Below, piece after piece: positions 3,652 through 39,185 of a stretch of DNA of 39,844 nucleotides; position 1 is the stretch's first letter; each line of letters opens with the position of its first letter. Below the pieces are notes generated by a model. The model was not told the DNA's origin. It searched no databases and saw only the letters and a list, made by a program, of their open reading frames with translations. A program made the translations under genes and the position numbers. The stretch is from Vicinamibacterales bacterium (GTDB taxonomy: Bacteria > Acidobacteriota > Vicinamibacteria > Vicinamibacterales > UBA8438): positions 1-39,844 of the forward strand of contig JAPYUM010000035.1 in the NCBI GenBank assembly GCA_029940535.1. The letters are read 5' to 3'.

Positions 3652-4085
3652 ATGCTCGACTCCTTGTCGCGTGGGGTCTTTCACACCTTGGCCGGCAGCC
3701 CCACCCTGAAGACCCTCGCCTCCAGGTACGGCATGCGGCCGCGTGGCTTCGCCCGGCGATTCATCGCTGGCGAGACGCTGGTCGACGCCATCGCGACCGC
3801 GACCCAACTGACCGGCAGCGGGCGACGCTGTACCCTCAACTACCTTGGTGAAAGCGTCACATCGTCAGTGGCCGCCCCGGCCGCCACTGACACGTATCAG
3901 TCCATCATGCGGGAGATCCACGACGCCGCGACCTCCAGAACGCGCTCAGCGCCGAGGACTACCGAGTCCGGGTTTACCTCCCGTTCGGACACCAGTGGTT
4001 TCAGTACTTCATGCGCCGCCTGGGCGAGCGCCCGGCCAACGTGTTGTTCGTGCTGAAAAGCCGCACCCACGACCGCGGCGCCTAG
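3652..4085 (+). pseudogene. Proline dehydrogenase with large internal deletion
   Basis: Proline dehydrogenase oxidises proline to pyrroline-5-carboxylate with FAD. The ATG at 3652 has a good AAGGAA site. The first roughly 90 codons look like the normal N terminus ('LASRYGMRPRGFARRFIAGE', 'CTLNYLGE', 'TYQSIMREIH'). At about 3920-3940 the sequence jumps to the C terminus in another frame: 'DLQNALSAEDYRVRVYLPFG', then 'QYFMRRLGERPANVLF', stopping at TAG 4083-4085. The whole FAD-binding barrel, on the order of 180 residues, is missing and the join is out of frame, so no active enzyme can be made. The TAG stop sits at the left edge of a 105-bp palindromic repeat. Confidence 0.85.
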
Positions 4086-4189
4086 GTTTCCTGGCGATCC
4101 GTCCGTCTGGCTAGGCGCGAGGAGGGAGCAGCCAGGTGGGCTGTGACCGACGAAGCAACACCGCCAGACGGGTGCCTCGCCGGAAAACC
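4085..4189. repeat. 105-bp palindromic element, family 1 copy A
   Basis: Arms of 27 bases (4085-4111 and 4163-4189) pair imperfectly and enclose a core with AGGCGCGAGGAGGGAGCAG and GACGAAGCAAC. An inner hairpin CAGCC/GGCTG lies in the middle. The element fills the whole gap between two converging genes: the TAG of the proline dehydrogenase remnant ends on its first base, and the TAG of the M20 gene begins on its last base. The second copy, inverted, is at 21284-21388, and a diverged third is at 37787-37893. It may act as a two-way terminator, a MITE/REP-type element or a structured RNA. Confidence 0.8.
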
Positions 4190-5328
4190 TAGCAGTACGC
4201 GCGGGCGAGTTGGATCAACGCGTCGCGGCAGAGGAGGACGGACTCGATGTCGACGTACTCTTCCCGACTGTGCAAGCCGGCTCCGCGTGGTCCGAAAATC
4301 ACTGAGGGGATCCCCGCCCGCCCTAGAATGGCCGCGTCGGTCCAGAAAGACATACCCACCGGCTCCGGCGACAGGTCTCGTGAACGCAGGACCTGGGTCA
4401 GAGCCAGGCGCACCGGGTCGTCTTTCGGAGCCTCGTAGGGCGACCGACTGAACAACGGGCGAGCCCTCCCTTCAAACTCGGGGTCGTCGGCGCGCAGCGC
4501 ATCAAGAGCGCCCTGAACCGCGGCCAATCCAACATCGGTCGGCTCGCCGGTCAGGGTTCGTCGTTCGAAGCGCATCTGGCAGGAATCCGGATAGACACTC
4601 AGTTCGCGCCCCCCAGCGATCGTCGACGCGTGCAAAGACCCGGTTCCCAGCAGTGGGTGCGGCCCCTGTCGGCGCAGGGCGAGGTCCACAGCCTCCAACC
4701 GGGTCAGGACCCGTCCCATCCGCATAATGGCGTCACGGCCATCCTCGGGACGACTCCCGTGTGCGGCGCGCCCCCGCGTCTCGACCTCGACCCATTCAAA
4801 CCCCTTGTGCGCGGTGGCAAGGGCGAGATCGGTCGGTTCGGTGACGACCGCCCCGTCCGCGTGGTGCTCCTGGACCAACGCATCTGCCCCCAGACTGCCA
4901 TGCTCCTCATCGGCGACGGCGGCTACCACGATGCGTCCGGTGGGAAGACCGCCGCTCCGGGCGATGCCGGACACGGCATCGAGCGCCGCCGCAAGACCGC
5001 CCTTCATGTCCTGTGCTCCACGTCCATACAGACGGCCGGACCGCGTAACCGGGTCGAAGGGCGCGTCCATCCCCTCAACCCCGACGGTATCCATGTGGCC
5101 GCAGAGCATCAGCGTCCGGCCTGGTTGTCGCCCGTTGAGCACGGCCACCACGTTGGGGCGGCCCGGGGCCACCTCAGTGACCTCCGCGTCGAGCCCAGCG
5201 GTGGTCAAAGTCGTCGCGATCAGATCGGCGACCGCCGCCTCACCGGCGGCACCGGGGACCAAGGATGGGTTGACGGAATCGATCGCGACGAGGTCGCACA
5301 ACAGCCGGATGGCCGGGTCCACCCCCAC
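4189..5328 (-). CDS. M20 family metallopeptidase (ArgE/DapE-type deacylase)
   Basis: A 379-residue zinc hydrolase that removes acyl or aminoacyl groups from amino acids, in the cytoplasm (no signal peptide). The expected metal and catalytic residues are present: H78 and D80 in 'GHMDT', D107 in 'GRGAQDMKGG', E141/E142 in 'DEEHG', E164, and a late histidine H353. H190 lies in the dimerisation domain ('AAHGSRPEDGRDA'). GTG 5328 is chosen because the preceding gene stops at 5333, leaving four bases; the longer frame upstream only mirrors that gene. GTG 5322 is an alternative. As the last gene of the TRAP operon it may process the imported compound. Whether it is ArgE, DapE, carboxypeptidase or aminoacylase cannot be told. 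Confidence 0.85.
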   Translation of the reverse strand: MGVDPAIRLLCDLVAIDSVNPSLVPGAAGEAAVADLIATTLTTAGLDAEVTEVAPGRPNVVAVLNGRQPGRTLMLCGHMDTVGVEGMDAPFDPVTRSGRLYGRGAQDMKGGLAAALDAVSGIARSGGLPTGRIVVAAVADEEHGSLGADALVQEHHADGAVVTEPTDLALATAHKGFEWVEVETRGRAAHGSRPEDGRDAIMRMGRVLTRLEAVDLALRRQGPHPLLGTGSLHASTIAGGRELSVYPDSCQMRFERRTLTGEPTDVGLAAVQGALDALRADDPEFEGRARPLFSRSPYEAPKDDPVRLALTQVLRSRDLSPEPVGMSFWTDAAILGRAGIPSVIFGPRGAGLHSREEYVDIESVLLCRDALIQLARAYC

Positions 5329-5332
5329 GACG

Positions 5333-6409
5333 CTATTCGACCCAGTCGGCGATGAACACGTTCGTGTCGCCCTCCACGCGGGCACCGCGGTTCGAGGCGA
5401 ACACGAGATGGGCGCCGTCCGGCGAGAACATCGGGAATCCGTCGAACGTACCGTTGAAAGTGATCCGTTCGAGCCCCGTGCCGTCCTCGTTGATGATGAA
5501 CAGGTCAAAGTTGCGGCCGTCGGGATCGTGAGAATTGGAACTGAAAATGATCCGCTCGCCATCCGGGTGCCAGAACGGACCGAAGTTTGCCCCGCCGAGG
5601 TCGGTGACCTGGTGGGGGTCGCCACCATCGGCGTCCATGACGAAAATTTCCAACGCCGTCGGTCGCCAGAGCCCCTGGTCGAGCAGCGACCGAAAGTCAT
5701 CTAGCTCGGCCCCGGGCTCGATCACGCGTCCGCGATAGACAATCTTGCTGCCGTCGGCAGAGAAGAACGGCCCGCCATCGGGTCCCGGACTGTTTGTCAA
5801 CCGCTGCACGTCCGACCCGTCACCGTTCATGGAGTAGATCTCCATGTCGCCGTCGCGCACGCTCGTGAATACGATCCGCCCGTCAGGCCCGATCGTCGCT
5901 TCGGCGTCGTATCCGTCCTCGCTCGTGAGTCGGCTCATCCCCGACCCGTCAGGGTTGGCCGTGAAGATGTCATAGCTGTCGTAGACCGGCCAGACATACC
6001 CCATCTCGAAGCCGGGTTCGGGCGGACACTCAGCGCCCCCGAGGTGGGTGGATGCGTACAGAATGGACTCGCCATCTGGGAAAAAATAGCCGCAGGTGGT
6101 GCGCCCGTCACCGGTGCTGACCATCTGCGCATCGGTGCCGTCCAACTCCATTGTGTAGATCTGGTCGCACGGCACGCCCTCACGCTGCGTCTGAAAGATG
6201 AGACGGCTGCCGTCGAACGCGTAGTAGGCCTCTGCGTTCTGTCCGGTAAAGGTGAGCTGGCGGAGATTCGTCAACCGAACTTCTTCGCTCTCAGGCCCGC
6301 CGGAAGCGACAGGCGGTTCGGCCATCCCGGCCACCGGCTCCGGATCGCCGCATCCCGCCACCACCAACAGGGAGACACTCCCAACTACAACCAAGACGCG
6401 GTTCCGCAT
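5333..6409 (-). CDS. TolB-like beta-propeller lipoprotein
   Basis: A 358-residue exported lipoprotein. The ATG at 6409 follows a strong GGAGGA site, and the N terminus has a lipobox ending 'VVAGC'. The rest is a series of TolB/WD40-like blades with the repeating pattern 'FSPDGxxLVFASN' (for example 'WHPDGERIIFSSN' and 'FSADGSKIVY') and aspartate-rich turns such as 'NGDGSD'. Such propellers bind proteins or peptides in the periplasm. It lies 68 bases after the TRAP permease and four bases before the M20 gene, same strand, so it likely belongs to that operon. Its partner is unknown. It is shorter than the propeller-peptidase fusions and carries no peptidase domain. Confidence 0.8.
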   Translation of the reverse strand: MRNRVLVVVGSVSLLVVAGCGDPEPVAGMAEPPVASGGPESEEVRLTNLRQLTFTGQNAEAYYAFDGSRLIFQTQREGVPCDQIYTMELDGTDAQMVSTGDGRTTCGYFFPDGESILYASTHLGGAECPPEPGFEMGYVWPVYDSYDIFTANPDGSGMSRLTSEDGYDAEATIGPDGRIVFTSVRDGDMEIYSMNGDGSDVQRLTNSPGPDGGPFFSADGSKIVYRGRVIEPGAELDDFRSLLDQGLWRPTALEIFVMDADGGDPHQVTDLGGANFGPFWHPDGERIIFSSNSHDPDGRNFDLFIINEDGTGLERITFNGTFDGFPMFSPDGAHLVFASNRGARVEGDTNVFIADWVE

Positions 6410-10462: not shown

Positions 10463-11278
10463 ATGTCCAGGTTCGTCACCATCCGGCGCGGCTGGTTCCT
10501 CATGGGCAGCCATGAGGGTCAGGCGGCCGAACGCCCCGTGCGCCAGACCTGGGTCGACGCGTTCCAACTCGCCGTTCACCCGGTCACTCGTCTTGAGTAT
10601 GCGCGGTTTCTGACCCAGACGGCTCACCCGCAGCCGCGGGAATGGGACAACCCCGCGTTCGGGCAACCAGACCAGCCGGCGGTAGGCGTGAGCTGGCACG
10701 ACGCTCAGGCGTACTGCGCCTGGTGGTCAGAGCAGGATGGCGCGGTGCGGCTCCCAACCGAAGCGGAGTGGGAGCGAGCGGCGCGCGGCGGTCCGGACGG
10801 CCGACGGTATCCCTGGGGTGATGACGTGCCGGAGTGGGTGCCCCAAGGCGGGCACGGCCCGCTCGACGGACCGTGGCGGGTGACACTCGGCCGCCCGAAT
10901 GGATTCGGACTGTATGGAATCGCCGCGAACATTCACGAGTGGTGCTCGAACTGGCACGACCGGGAGTTCTACTCGCAGTCGCCAACCATCAACCCCACCG
11001 GCCCCGACACCGGCACTCGACGCGCGTCGCGCGGGGGAGCGTGGCGTCATGCGGTCACCATCAACCGGACGGCGGCACGGAGCAGTCTCGACCCCACGTT
11101 CCGTTATACCGACTACGGATTCCGACTCGCTAGGGACTATTACTCAGACGGGGCTGCGCCCCGAACCCCCGCGGCGACTCCGCGGGGACCCCGAGTGCCC
11201 CACTCCGCCGCCACGGGGCGCGCATTGTCGCGCGCCTGCGTCGTTCTTGGGGGGCAACACGCGTGGGCGCGGTCATGA
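10463..11278 (+). CDS. Formylglycine-generating enzyme-like protein (SUMF1/FGE-sulfatase family)
   Basis: A 271-residue protein with a C-type-lectin-like FGE fold. Family landmarks: 'WFLMGSHEG', 'PVTRLEYARFL', 'AVGVSWHDAQAYCAWW', 'RLPTEAEWERAARGG', 'YPWGDD', 'NGFGLYGIAANIHEWCSNW', 'SRGGAW' and 'YTDYGFRLAR'. Relatives either oxidise a cysteine in sulfatases or bind ligands or ergothioneine-type substrates. I do not see the paired active-site cysteines of true FGE, so its reaction is uncertain. The family domain ends near 'GFRLARDYY' (about 11141); the last 45 residues are read from a palindromic repeat. Its TGA overlaps the next start codon (ATGA). No signal peptide is visible from this start. 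Confidence 0.78.
   Translation: MSRFVTIRRGWFLMGSHEGQAAERPVRQTWVDAFQLAVHPVTRLEYARFLTQTAHPQPREWDNPAFGQPDQPAVGVSWHDAQAYCAWWSEQDGAVRLPTEAEWERAARGGPDGRRYPWGDDVPEWVPQGGHGPLDGPWRVTLGRPNGFGLYGIAANIHEWCSNWHDREFYSQSPTINPTGPDTGTRRASRGGAWRHAVTINRTAARSSLDPTFRYTDYGFRLARDYYSDGAAPRTPAATPRGPRVPHSAATGRALSRACVVLGGQHAWARS
11137..11250. repeat. GC-rich palindromic repeat, family 2 copy 1
   Basis: It starts with ACGGGGCTGCGCCCCGAACC and runs through several inverted segments to a GCGCGCAT/GTCGCGCGC-like end. It matches, inverted, the sequence at 23424-23518, and its first 16 bases recur at 21447-21462. It lies at the end of the SUMF1-like gene and has no stop in that frame, so it extends the protein by about 45 residues. 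Confidence 0.7.
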
Positions 11279-20111: not shown

Positions 20112-21104
20112 ATGACCCAACTGGTACTTGCCGGCGACGTAGGGGGAACCAAGACCTGGCTTGGTCTGTTCACGTGTGACGCGCCGCGGCCGGTCGTGGT
20201 CTCGACCCGACGTTTCCGGACGCTCGAGCACGACGGGATCGCGGCGATCATCGCCCGTTTCCTCGAACAGGCCGGAACCCCTCCGATCGTCTCCGCCTGT
20301 CTCGGCGTGGCCGGACCGGTGCGGAACAACGCCTCACAGCTGACCAACGTTCCGTGGCGCATCGATGGCGTCGACCTGGCAGAACGATTTGGCTTTGCGA
20401 CCCTGCGGGTGCTCAACGATCTTGAGGCGATGGCCTATGCCGTCCCCTGGCTCGCCCCGTCCGAGTTGGCCGTCATCCAGCCCGGTACGCCGGTCAAGGG
20501 AGGCACGGTCGCAGTGATCGCCCCCGGCACTGGGCTTGGCGAGGCCTGTCTTCACACGGTCGGCGAGTGCCACCACGCGCTACCATCGGAAGCTGGACAC
20601 AGCGACTTCCCGGCCCGGACGCCGCGAGAACTCGAGTTGGTGGCGAGCCTGACCGCGACCAATGGCCGGGTGGCACTCGAAGACGTGGTCTCCGGGCCGG
20701 GACTTGTCACGCTTCACCGTTTCACCCATCTGACGTCCACGTGCACACAAGGCCCGTTGCCCGACGACGCCGCTAGGCAGCCATCCGCGGTGACCGCGTT
20801 TGCGCTGAATGGTCGGTGTGGCCCCTGCCAGGAGGCCCTCGACCTGTTCGTGGCCGCGCTTGGGGCAGAGACTGGCAATCTCGCCCTGCGGACACTCCCA
20901 CGCGCCGGGCTCTACATCGGCGGAGGTATTGGGTCCCAAATCGTGCCGGCTCTCCGGTCGGCCTGTTTTCTCGACGCCTTGTCGACAAAGGGTCCGATGC
21001 GATCGCTGGTCGAGCAGATTCCAATATTCGTGATTCTCGAGCCGAAGGTCGCGCTCATCGGGGCCGCGGTCAAGGCGGTCGAGATCCACCCCGCACCGTC
21101 TTGA
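20112..21104 (+). CDS. glk: Glucokinase
   Basis: A 330-residue sugar kinase of the bacterial Glk family (ATP-dependent phosphorylation of glucose). The phosphate loop 'AGDVGGTKTWLGLF' begins at residue 7. 'GVAGPV' and 'LNDLEAMAYAVP' (catalytic Asp) follow, then 'PGTGLGEACL', 'SEAGHSDF' and 'GLYIGGGIGSQIVP'. The ATG at 20112 is chosen because family members begin a few residues before the loop. No sugar transporter is nearby, so free glucose from outside or from disaccharide cleavage is the likely substrate. A Crp/Fnr remnant follows directly. Confidence 0.92.
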   Translation: MTQLVLAGDVGGTKTWLGLFTCDAPRPVVVSTRRFRTLEHDGIAAIIARFLEQAGTPPIVSACLGVAGPVRNNASQLTNVPWRIDGVDLAERFGFATLRVLNDLEAMAYAVPWLAPSELAVIQPGTPVKGGTVAVIAPGTGLGEACLHTVGECHHALPSEAGHSDFPARTPRELELVASLTATNGRVALEDVVSGPGLVTLHRFTHLTSTCTQGPLPDDAARQPSAVTAFALNGRCGPCQEALDLFVAALGAETGNLALRTLPRAGLYIGGGIGSQIVPALRSACFLDALSTKGPMRSLVEQIPIFVILEPKVALIGAAVKAVEIHPAPS

Positions 21105-21116
21105 TCAAACCAGCGG

Positions 21117-21283
21117 AGCACGGCGTGGAGGACGCTGATGGGGTCGTCATCCCGCTCCGGCTCAGCCAGAGAGACATCGCGAACTTCGTCGGACTGACCA
21201 GGGAGACAGTCAACTTCATCCTGAAGGATCTCCGCGAGCGCAACCTGATCGAGACACAGGGCCGCAGCATTCGCCTCAAGAAC
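21117..21283 (+). pseudogene. C-terminal remnant of a Crp/Fnr-family regulator
   Basis: About 55 codons in the +2 frame encode a Crp-type winged helix: 'VVIPLRLSQRDIANFVG' then 'LTRETVNFILKDLRERNLIE' and 'GRSIRLKN'. The serine-glutamine turn and the recognition helix 'TRETVN' are intact. No cyclic-nucleotide-binding domain or start codon is found upstream, since glucokinase occupies the sequence to 21104. The end runs straight into repeat copy B at 21284 with no stop, so the frame is extended by repeat sequence. It is a fragment left after deletion or rearrangement. Confidence 0.75.
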
Positions 21284-21388
21284 GGTTTTCTGACGAGGCG
21301 CCCGTCTGGCGGCGTTGCTTCGTCGGTCACAGCCCACCTGGCTGCTCCCTCCTCGCGCCTTGCCAGACAGACGCCTCGTCAGAAAACC
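21284..21388. repeat. 105-bp palindromic element, family 1 copy B (inverted)
   Basis: The same length as copy A and its reverse complement in most of the core. Arms at 21284-21310 and 21362-21388 begin GGTTTTCTGACGAGGCG and end with the complement. The inner CAGCC/GGCTG hairpin is preserved. It caps the Crp/Fnr remnant. Confidence 0.85.
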
Positions 21389-21411
21389 CCTTCGGACCTT
21401 TTCCAGCGACC

Positions 21412-21465
21412 TGCTAGGTTTTCAGCACCCTCCTAGCCTAGGACTTAGACGGGGCTGCGCCGCTT
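21412..21465. repeat. Partial repeat ends of families 1 and 2
   Basis: CTAGGTTTTC near 21414 is the outer end of family 1; TTAGACGGGGCTGCGCC at about 21445-21461 is the outer end of family 2. Both are cut short, giving a nest of truncated copies next to copy B. Confidence 0.55.
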
Positions 21466-35704: not shown

Positions 35705-35780
35705 GGGCCAGTGGCGCAGTTGGGAGCGCGCGTGAATGGCATTCACGAGGTCAGGGGTTCGAACCCCCTCTGGTCCACCA
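35705..35780 (+). tRNA. tRNA-Ala (GGC)
   Basis: A 76-base tRNA with CCA encoded. The seven-base acceptor stem GGGCCAG pairs with CTGGTCC, the anticodon stem is CGTGA/TCACG with loop ATGGCAT (anticodon GGC), and the T loop is GGTTCGAACC. It reads GCC and GCT alanine codons. Confidence 0.95.
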
Positions 35781-37786: not shown

Positions 37787-37893
37787 CGACTCCTGGGTGC
37801 GACGCCCGGCTGGCAAGGCGCGACGAGGGAGCAGATCGGGCATCTGTGATCGAGGAGCAACGCCGCCCGCCGGAGTGCCCCGCCCAGGAGTCG
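37787..37893. repeat. Palindromic element, family 1 copy C (diverged)
   Basis: A 107-bp relative of copies A and B. The conserved core words AAGGCGCGA, GAGGGAGCAG and GAGCAACGCCGCC are kept, but both arms have changed together (outer CGACTCCTGGG with CCCAGGAGTCG). The inner hairpin changed from CAGCC/GGCTG to CAGAT/ATCTG, still paired. It lies upstream of the mocA start and before the zinc-ribbon gene. Confidence 0.75.
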
Positions 37894-37919
37894 GGTTGCG
37901 AATCGTTGGGGCGGAACAC

Positions 37920-37938
37920 TACAATCTGTCTCGCCATG
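37920..37938 (+). promoter_or_regulatory. -10 box ten bases before ATG
   Basis: TACAAT at 37920-37925, ten bases, then the ATG at 37936. No Shine-Dalgarno sequence; the mRNA would have at most a few leader bases. Confidence 0.35.
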
Positions 37939-39088: not shown

Positions 39089-39185
39089 GGAAGCGAACGG
39101 GGCCCGGTGGCCCTCCCGGTCTTCAAAACCGGTCGCCCCCCGCCAACGCGGGGGGGCTGGGTTCGACTCCCAGGCGCTTCCGCCA
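39089..39185 (+). tRNA. selC: Selenocysteine tRNA (tRNA-Sec, UCA)
   Basis: A 97-base tRNA that decodes UGA as selenocysteine. It begins GGAAGCG and ends CGCTTCC-GCCA. The anticodon loop CTTCAAA gives UCA, closed by CCGGT/ACCGG. The D stem is GGGCC/GGCCC, and the variable arm is a long hairpin (CGCCCCCCGC and GCGGGGGGGC). The T loop is GGTTCGACTCC. It shows that the organism makes selenoproteins, so selA, selB and selD should lie elsewhere. Its 3' end lies 12 bases from the end of a tyrosine recombinase. Confidence 0.95.

Follow-up and report, generated by a model that had tools for sequence, protein, structure and literature searches.

A MITE-like palindromic element with a conserved core of putative tandem G.A motifs, frequently located at gene stop codons in a Vicinamibacterales genome and present in many bacterial phyla

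Three copies of a palindromic element have been identified in the window, that is, the whole analyzed stretch of 39,844 nt from a Vicinamibacterales genome. The copies and associated features are as follows.

4085–4189, plus strand: element copy 1, a complete 105-bp imperfect palindrome GGTTTCC...GGAAAACC, both flanks being the TA inside CTAG
4112–4161, plus strand: conserved core of copy 1, putative stacked tandem G.A motifs surrounding an inner stem-loop
4082–4085: left CTAG of copy 1, the duplicated target, with TA at 4083–4084; a single CTAG is found here in genomes G002 and G003
4189–4192: right CTAG of copy 1, where 4189–4191 is the TAG stop codon, on the minus strand, of the M20-peptidase gene 4189–5700
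21284–21388, minus strand: element copy 2, a nearly perfect 105-bp palindrome supplying a new C-terminus of the Crp-like ORF 20816–21436 (plus strand)
21312–21361, minus strand: conserved core of copy 2
21389–21417, minus strand: 5' extension of copy 2, with the sequence CTAGCAGGTCGCTGGAAAAGGTCCGAAGG, similar to an end of an IS5-type insertion sequence (IS) from a same-genus genome
37787–37893, plus strand: element copy 3, of an older, different subfamily, between divergent genes
37815–37863, plus strand: conserved core of copy 3
37894–37921, plus strand: right outer-arm remnant of copy 3, ...GCGAATCGTTGGGGCGGAACACTA, resembling, in a by-eye comparison with the ends of loci L265 and L204, the TAGTGTCCCGTC terminal-repeat family

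The window also contains the genes of tRNA-Sec (39089–39185) and tRNA-Ala (35705–35780), as well as a second dispersed repeat at 11143–11237 (CAGACGGGGCTGCGCCCCGAACCCC...GCGCGCCTG), which has many copies in the same genome, G002 and G003, and is often situated directly upstream of palindrome copies.

The copies lie exactly where the initial annotation had placed them, and each is predicted to fold into one long hairpin, far more stable than its dinucleotide-shuffled versions (RNA folding z-scores of –4.6, –12.2 and –4.4 for copies 1, 2 and 3, respectively, with none of 200 shuffles equally stable). As had been reported, the inner stem is CAGCC/GGCTG in copies 1 and 2 and CAGAT/ATCTG in copy 3, both sides having changed together. 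The description of the copies as one type of near-equal length holds for copies 1 and 2, which represent a derived type of 105 bp, in many cases with a 29-nt 5' extension, but not for copy 3, a member of an older subfamily with the right arm reaching to about 37921. This arm resembles the TAGTGTCC family, and no recognizable left partner of the remnant has been found.

Copy 1 was compared with two same-genus genomes, G002 and G003. It is arranged as C-TA-element-TA-G, and in both of them the corresponding position is occupied by a single CTAG, i.e., an empty site. At the site of copy 2, no element is present in G002, and the same intergenic region of G003 harbors a relative with different ends; the Crp-like ORF has a different end in G002 and G003, shared by both and lacking the C-terminus derived from copy 2. 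A clean empty site is available for copy 1 only; empty sites were also sought in contig C122, where the region has no synteny in G003.

Combined pattern and covariance-model searches, the latter proposed in the initial annotation, located about 138 places in the window genome (4.83 Mb) with E ≤ 0.001, which is a lower bound, as 150 candidates were scored. The element is present in 28 out of 40 relatives, some of them with dozens of copies (97+ in G003, 61 in G010, 73 in G014), and has a patchy distribution, being found in 22 of the 149 genomes surveyed from the phylum. An exact-pattern scan of named genomes identified the core, among the matches listed, in Acidobacteria (several classes), Myxococcales, Nannocystineae, Kofleriaceae, Pedosphaera, Spartobacteria, Omnitrophota, Elusimicrobia, Gemmatimonadetes, Nitrospinota, Planctomycetota, and one deltaproteobacterium. 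Sixteen of the matched named genomes have from 2 to 65 copies apiece, e.g., 65 in Nitrospinota (a 2.2-Mb genome), 22–45 in Myxococcota, 28 in Verrucomicrobia, and 27 in Omnitrophota. No core was found in plasmid and phage records with BLAST, and among viral contigs it is present in a single 16-kb contig.

Some copies in the window genome are arranged in tandem or closely paired (L040, 1501–1706; L029, 1501–1859). Moreover, in six composites (L068, L320, L322, L327, L329, L410) one core is combined with a hairpin module of the GCAACCC type and with a second, inverted core, all inside other terminal repeats. In roughly 15–20 copies of the window genome (L150, L152–L163, L165, L167, L168) the apical stem is enlarged by a CCCCGCCCGGCCGGGCGGGG insertion.

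The predicted fold is well supported by covariation. In 12 copies from the window genome 94.9% of cells are standard pairs, and double-sided changes are observed in 15 pairs, compared to the shuffle mean of 6.8; sliding the partners by 1–3 columns reduces pairing to only 34–47%. The outer arms covary too, in agreement with the claim that they change in pairs. Among 57 distinct cross-family cores, in an alignment fitted to the structure, 94.3% of cells are paired, the opposite of the many unpaired changes that would speak against the fold. The number of double-change cells in this alignment is 172 against 47 in shuffled data, and an unfitted alignment has 87 against 23.6.

The core has a constant order of motifs, 5'-AA GGC GC GA S GA SS GA followed by the stem, and GA SS GA S GA(A) GC AAC GCC in the 3' strand. 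The GA steps are fixed, and the one or two Watson–Crick pairs separating them covary: in the fitted alignment of the 57 distinct cross-lineage cores, the single separating pair is C-G in 35, G-C in 13, and U-A or A-U in three cases, and the double one exchanges GG/CC for CC/GG. The purine-rich segments had been described as unpaired, their conservation being expected of a binding surface. Their conservation is evident, but a reading as tandem G.A motifs, stacked and with a C-G/G-C pair that swaps between them, suits them better than one as simply unpaired stretches; from the sequence pattern we infer a sheared geometry of the G.A pairs.

The two strands of the palindrome are not equivalent. 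On the strand carrying the G.A motifs in 110 copies from the window genome, G.U combinations occupy 435 cells, compared to 92 for A.C. Such an excess indicates that selection acts on this particular strand in the folded state, and we conclude that it is probably kept folded, as RNA or as single-stranded DNA. Together with the covariation, this supports the earlier suggestion that the paired changes reflect selection on a folded single strand.

The bias toward G.U and the conserved non-canonical motifs are typical of RNA, and, with the existence of two-core composites, could point to a family of trans-acting small RNA genes spread by transposition, the tandem G.A core being a protein-binding RNA. 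We consider this explanation unlikely, as no consistent direction of transcription through the G.A strand is observed.

A prominent feature of the element is its position relative to genes, as called by an ad hoc hexamer gene caller. In the window genome the boundary of 60 of 107 copies falls precisely on the stop codon of a gene in antisense orientation, compared to only 29% of other non-coding CTAGs being stops. Among 65 elements from other lineages, a stop codon coincides with 17 left and 14 right boundaries, which exceeds more than 20 times the density at 20–150 nt from the element. The window genome has a strong asymmetry, with the right end abutting stops 60 times and the left one about 13 times, which symmetric insertion at TA would not predict. 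The neighborhoods there are convergent in 46 cases vs. 8 divergent ones.

The base following TA at the start of elements is G or A, and hence the stop codon, TAG or TAA, is rebuilt upon insertion. As evidenced by the sister genomes, the stop codon abutting copy 1 was native before the insertion. Precise insertion at stops with their subsequent rebuilding explains how the genome tolerates more than a hundred copies. Part of the stop-codon enrichment could come from survival of such insertions and not from targeting.

The bias toward gene 3' ends and convergent neighborhoods, as well as very stable hairpins and the strand-specific G.U excess, would also be expected of a cis-acting RNA (a terminator, an mRNA stabilizer or a regulator) retained for the benefit of the host and not mobile. 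However, in the window genome it is the strand complementary to the G.A one that the abutting gene transcribes, other lineages show both orientations with similar frequency (17 and 14), and no U-run right after the hairpin was seen by eye. The patchy presence, the empty site, the target duplications and the exchanged terminal repeats matching those of ISs (see below) disagree with a cis-acting role as well, making it improbable.

Mobility is further indicated by the structure of the element outside the core. The length typical of most lineages is about 160 bp, with the core in the center and terminal inverted repeats outside; the folding energy of a full 160-nt copy is –110.9 kcal/mol (z = –12.4). 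The terminal repeats are wholly different between lineages (TAGCAGYCCGTGGTGAAA, TAGTGTCCCGTCCCAG, GGCCTCGTGCGGAAATAA, GGGCCCGGGAAGGGG, and others). Matching 3-bp TNA direct repeats with varying N (TAA/TAA or TTA/TTA) flank 11 of 12 copies in Pedosphaera, and in Kofleriaceae TNA direct repeats match in 6 of 9 copies, including TCA/TCA. In the window genome CTAG is present at both ends in only 16 of 110 copies, and many copies lack symmetric ends; copy 1 in the window is symmetric. In one locus, L393 (G037:C39:47165-47214), the core is absent, and two terminal repeats, bordered by CTAG at each side, form a perfect 50-bp palindrome. Hence, the core is dispensable for spread, and its conservation needs another reason.

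A search for a long autonomous partner by terminal repeats in nine genomes returned standard short elements only, and partner ISs emerged only from scanning transposase loci for element ends. In the same-genus genome G001, a 1.3-kb IS has CTAGCAGGCTGC(T/G)GAAAAAC at both ends and encodes an IS5-family transposase (NF033581, 7e-82); the sequence compared with this end is the 5' extension of the window-genome copies, CTAGCAGGTCGCTGAAAAACG. In another member of the family, G012, the ends of a 1.47-kb IS are CTAGCAGGCCGTGGTGAAAC and CTAGCAGGCCGTGGCCAAAGGCC, compared to CTAGCAGYCCGTGGTGAAACCCC in the elements, and its sub-terminal GTAGCACCGAG recurs inside the elements. The transposase of this IS has its best matches in IS1182 (5.6e-52, under the curated cut-off) and IS5; a broken, truncated relative of this IS with the same right end is present in the window genome. 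Finally, G012 contains an IS630 whose ends, CTAGTGTCCTGAGCC, are similar to the TAGTGTCC family. The core is found in none of these three ISs. Based on these comparisons, the terminal repeats of two subfamilies match autonomous IS5/IS1182-like ISs in related genomes, and those of a third one resemble IS630, suggesting mobilization in trans by transposases with matching ends.

No intact IS with matching ends was identified among IS630 and DDE_Tnp_1 genes of the window genome and G003, and in the latter, with its 97+ copies, no match to Y1, DDE_3 or DDE_Tnp_1 is observed. As no intact drivers were found in these two genomes, the mobilization may be a past event.

The initial annotation had suggested looking for a RAYT or another transposase with matching ends. 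An imperfect hairpin with high copy number and strand asymmetry indeed resembles REP/REPIN-like elements, moved as single-stranded DNA by RAYT (Y1 tyrosine) transposases, and half of the relatives have some Y1 transposase. However, across the relatives Y1 transposases are uncorrelated with the element, and no PF01797 is found in the element-rich G003, G010 and G014. Moreover, units of 105–160 bp with TA/CTAG or TNA ends, target-site duplications and ends matching DDE-type ISs are at odds with such a mechanism, and we regard it as very unlikely.

Taken together, the element is a non-coding sequence of 105–160 bp, with high copy number, terminal inverted repeats clear in other lineages, target-site duplications and empty sites, and ends common to autonomous ISs, all of which are features of MITEs. 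We consider it highly probable that this is a MITE-like non-autonomous transposon, its ends being recognized by DDE transposases, which inserts at stop codons and whose G.A strand is kept folded. According to this model, a hairpin of 105 bp in the window genome and about 160 bp in most lineages would lie between terminal inverted repeats recognized in trans, now or formerly, by DDE transposases, those acting on the CTAGCAG... ends being of the IS5/IS1182 type and those acting on the TAGTGTCC... ends probably of the IS630 type. The targets would contain TA and would very often be gene stop codons; insertion would duplicate the target, and the purine at the start of the element would rebuild TAG or TAA, leaving the host gene intact. 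The G.A strand (AAGGCGCGA-S-GA-SS-GA-stem-GA-SS-GA-S-GA-GCAACGC) would be selected in the folded state, as RNA or single-stranded DNA.

In many phyla the core is found together with unrelated terminal repeats, and hence it is independent of the transposase; this suggests that different transposons have made use of a single common structure. We infer that the core does not serve a host gene but promotes persistence of the element, possibly by binding a protein or by making a long palindrome tolerable. To our knowledge, the new feature here is an inner core retained across phyla while the terminal repeats, and hence the transposase, are exchanged: the open-access PubMed Central full text yielded no report of a MITE with a core shared between phyla and between types of terminal repeat.

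In agreement with the initial annotation, which could not assign the element to a named family, nothing at the element exceeded any gathering threshold in Rfam, including permissive searches. Among known systems, REPs are 20–40 bp long and have GTAG or CGTC tags (PMC3733652). REPs, BIMEs and REPINs are similar to the element in being abundant intergenic hairpins with compensatory changes in stems, but the element is much longer, has target duplications, and shows no GTAG/CGTC tag and no association with RAYT. Mobilization of MITEs in trans by means of shared ends is known, e.g., for RUP of pneumococcus, the ends of which match IS630-Spn1 (PMC2229807). Similarly to RUP and Correia/NEMIS, the studied elements are short, non-autonomous and target TA, and one of the subfamilies resembles IS630; however, RUP is tied to one transposase, whereas here one core is combined with many different ends in many phyla. 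We know of no reported conserved structural core in RUP.

Tourist-type MITEs are eukaryotic elements of the PIF/Harbinger superfamily, related to IS5, with TNA (TAA/TTA) target duplications. They share with our element these duplications and the IS5-superfamily ancestry of the transposase, but differ in that their internal sequence is not known to be conserved across families. MITEs are usually recognized by their ends, the interior being regarded as filler; in the element studied here, conservation resides in the interior, which is present in many phyla and with at least two transposase end types and shows covariation around putative stacked tandem G.A motifs.

The ERIC/IRU/RU-1 elements are also dispersed MITE-like palindromes of similar size with terminal inverted repeats, and we know of no autonomous partner of ERIC. 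By reading, the motifs of E. coli ERIC follow one another as in the core, from AAGGCG through two GA steps, a stem and two more GA steps to CAACGC; its apical stem is longer. This order, a post hoc descriptor, was matched by none of 200,000 ERIC shuffles. The cross-phylum covariance model scored ERIC at 8.3 bits (E = 0.13), the best match in a 1.3-kb stretch, in a different register; as this score is not significant, the likeness is a lead only. Tentatively, we propose that the AAGGCG...CAACGC core with stacked tandem G.A motifs, of which ERIC would be a known outlier, could be an ancient pan-bacterial hitchhiker, repeatedly re-paired with unrelated DDE-type ends, and that a protein-binding role of the folded G.A strand might make such palindromes succeed. 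The described core also opens to testing the old question of whether palindromes interspersed in bacterial genomes, ERIC among them, have a folded core with a function.
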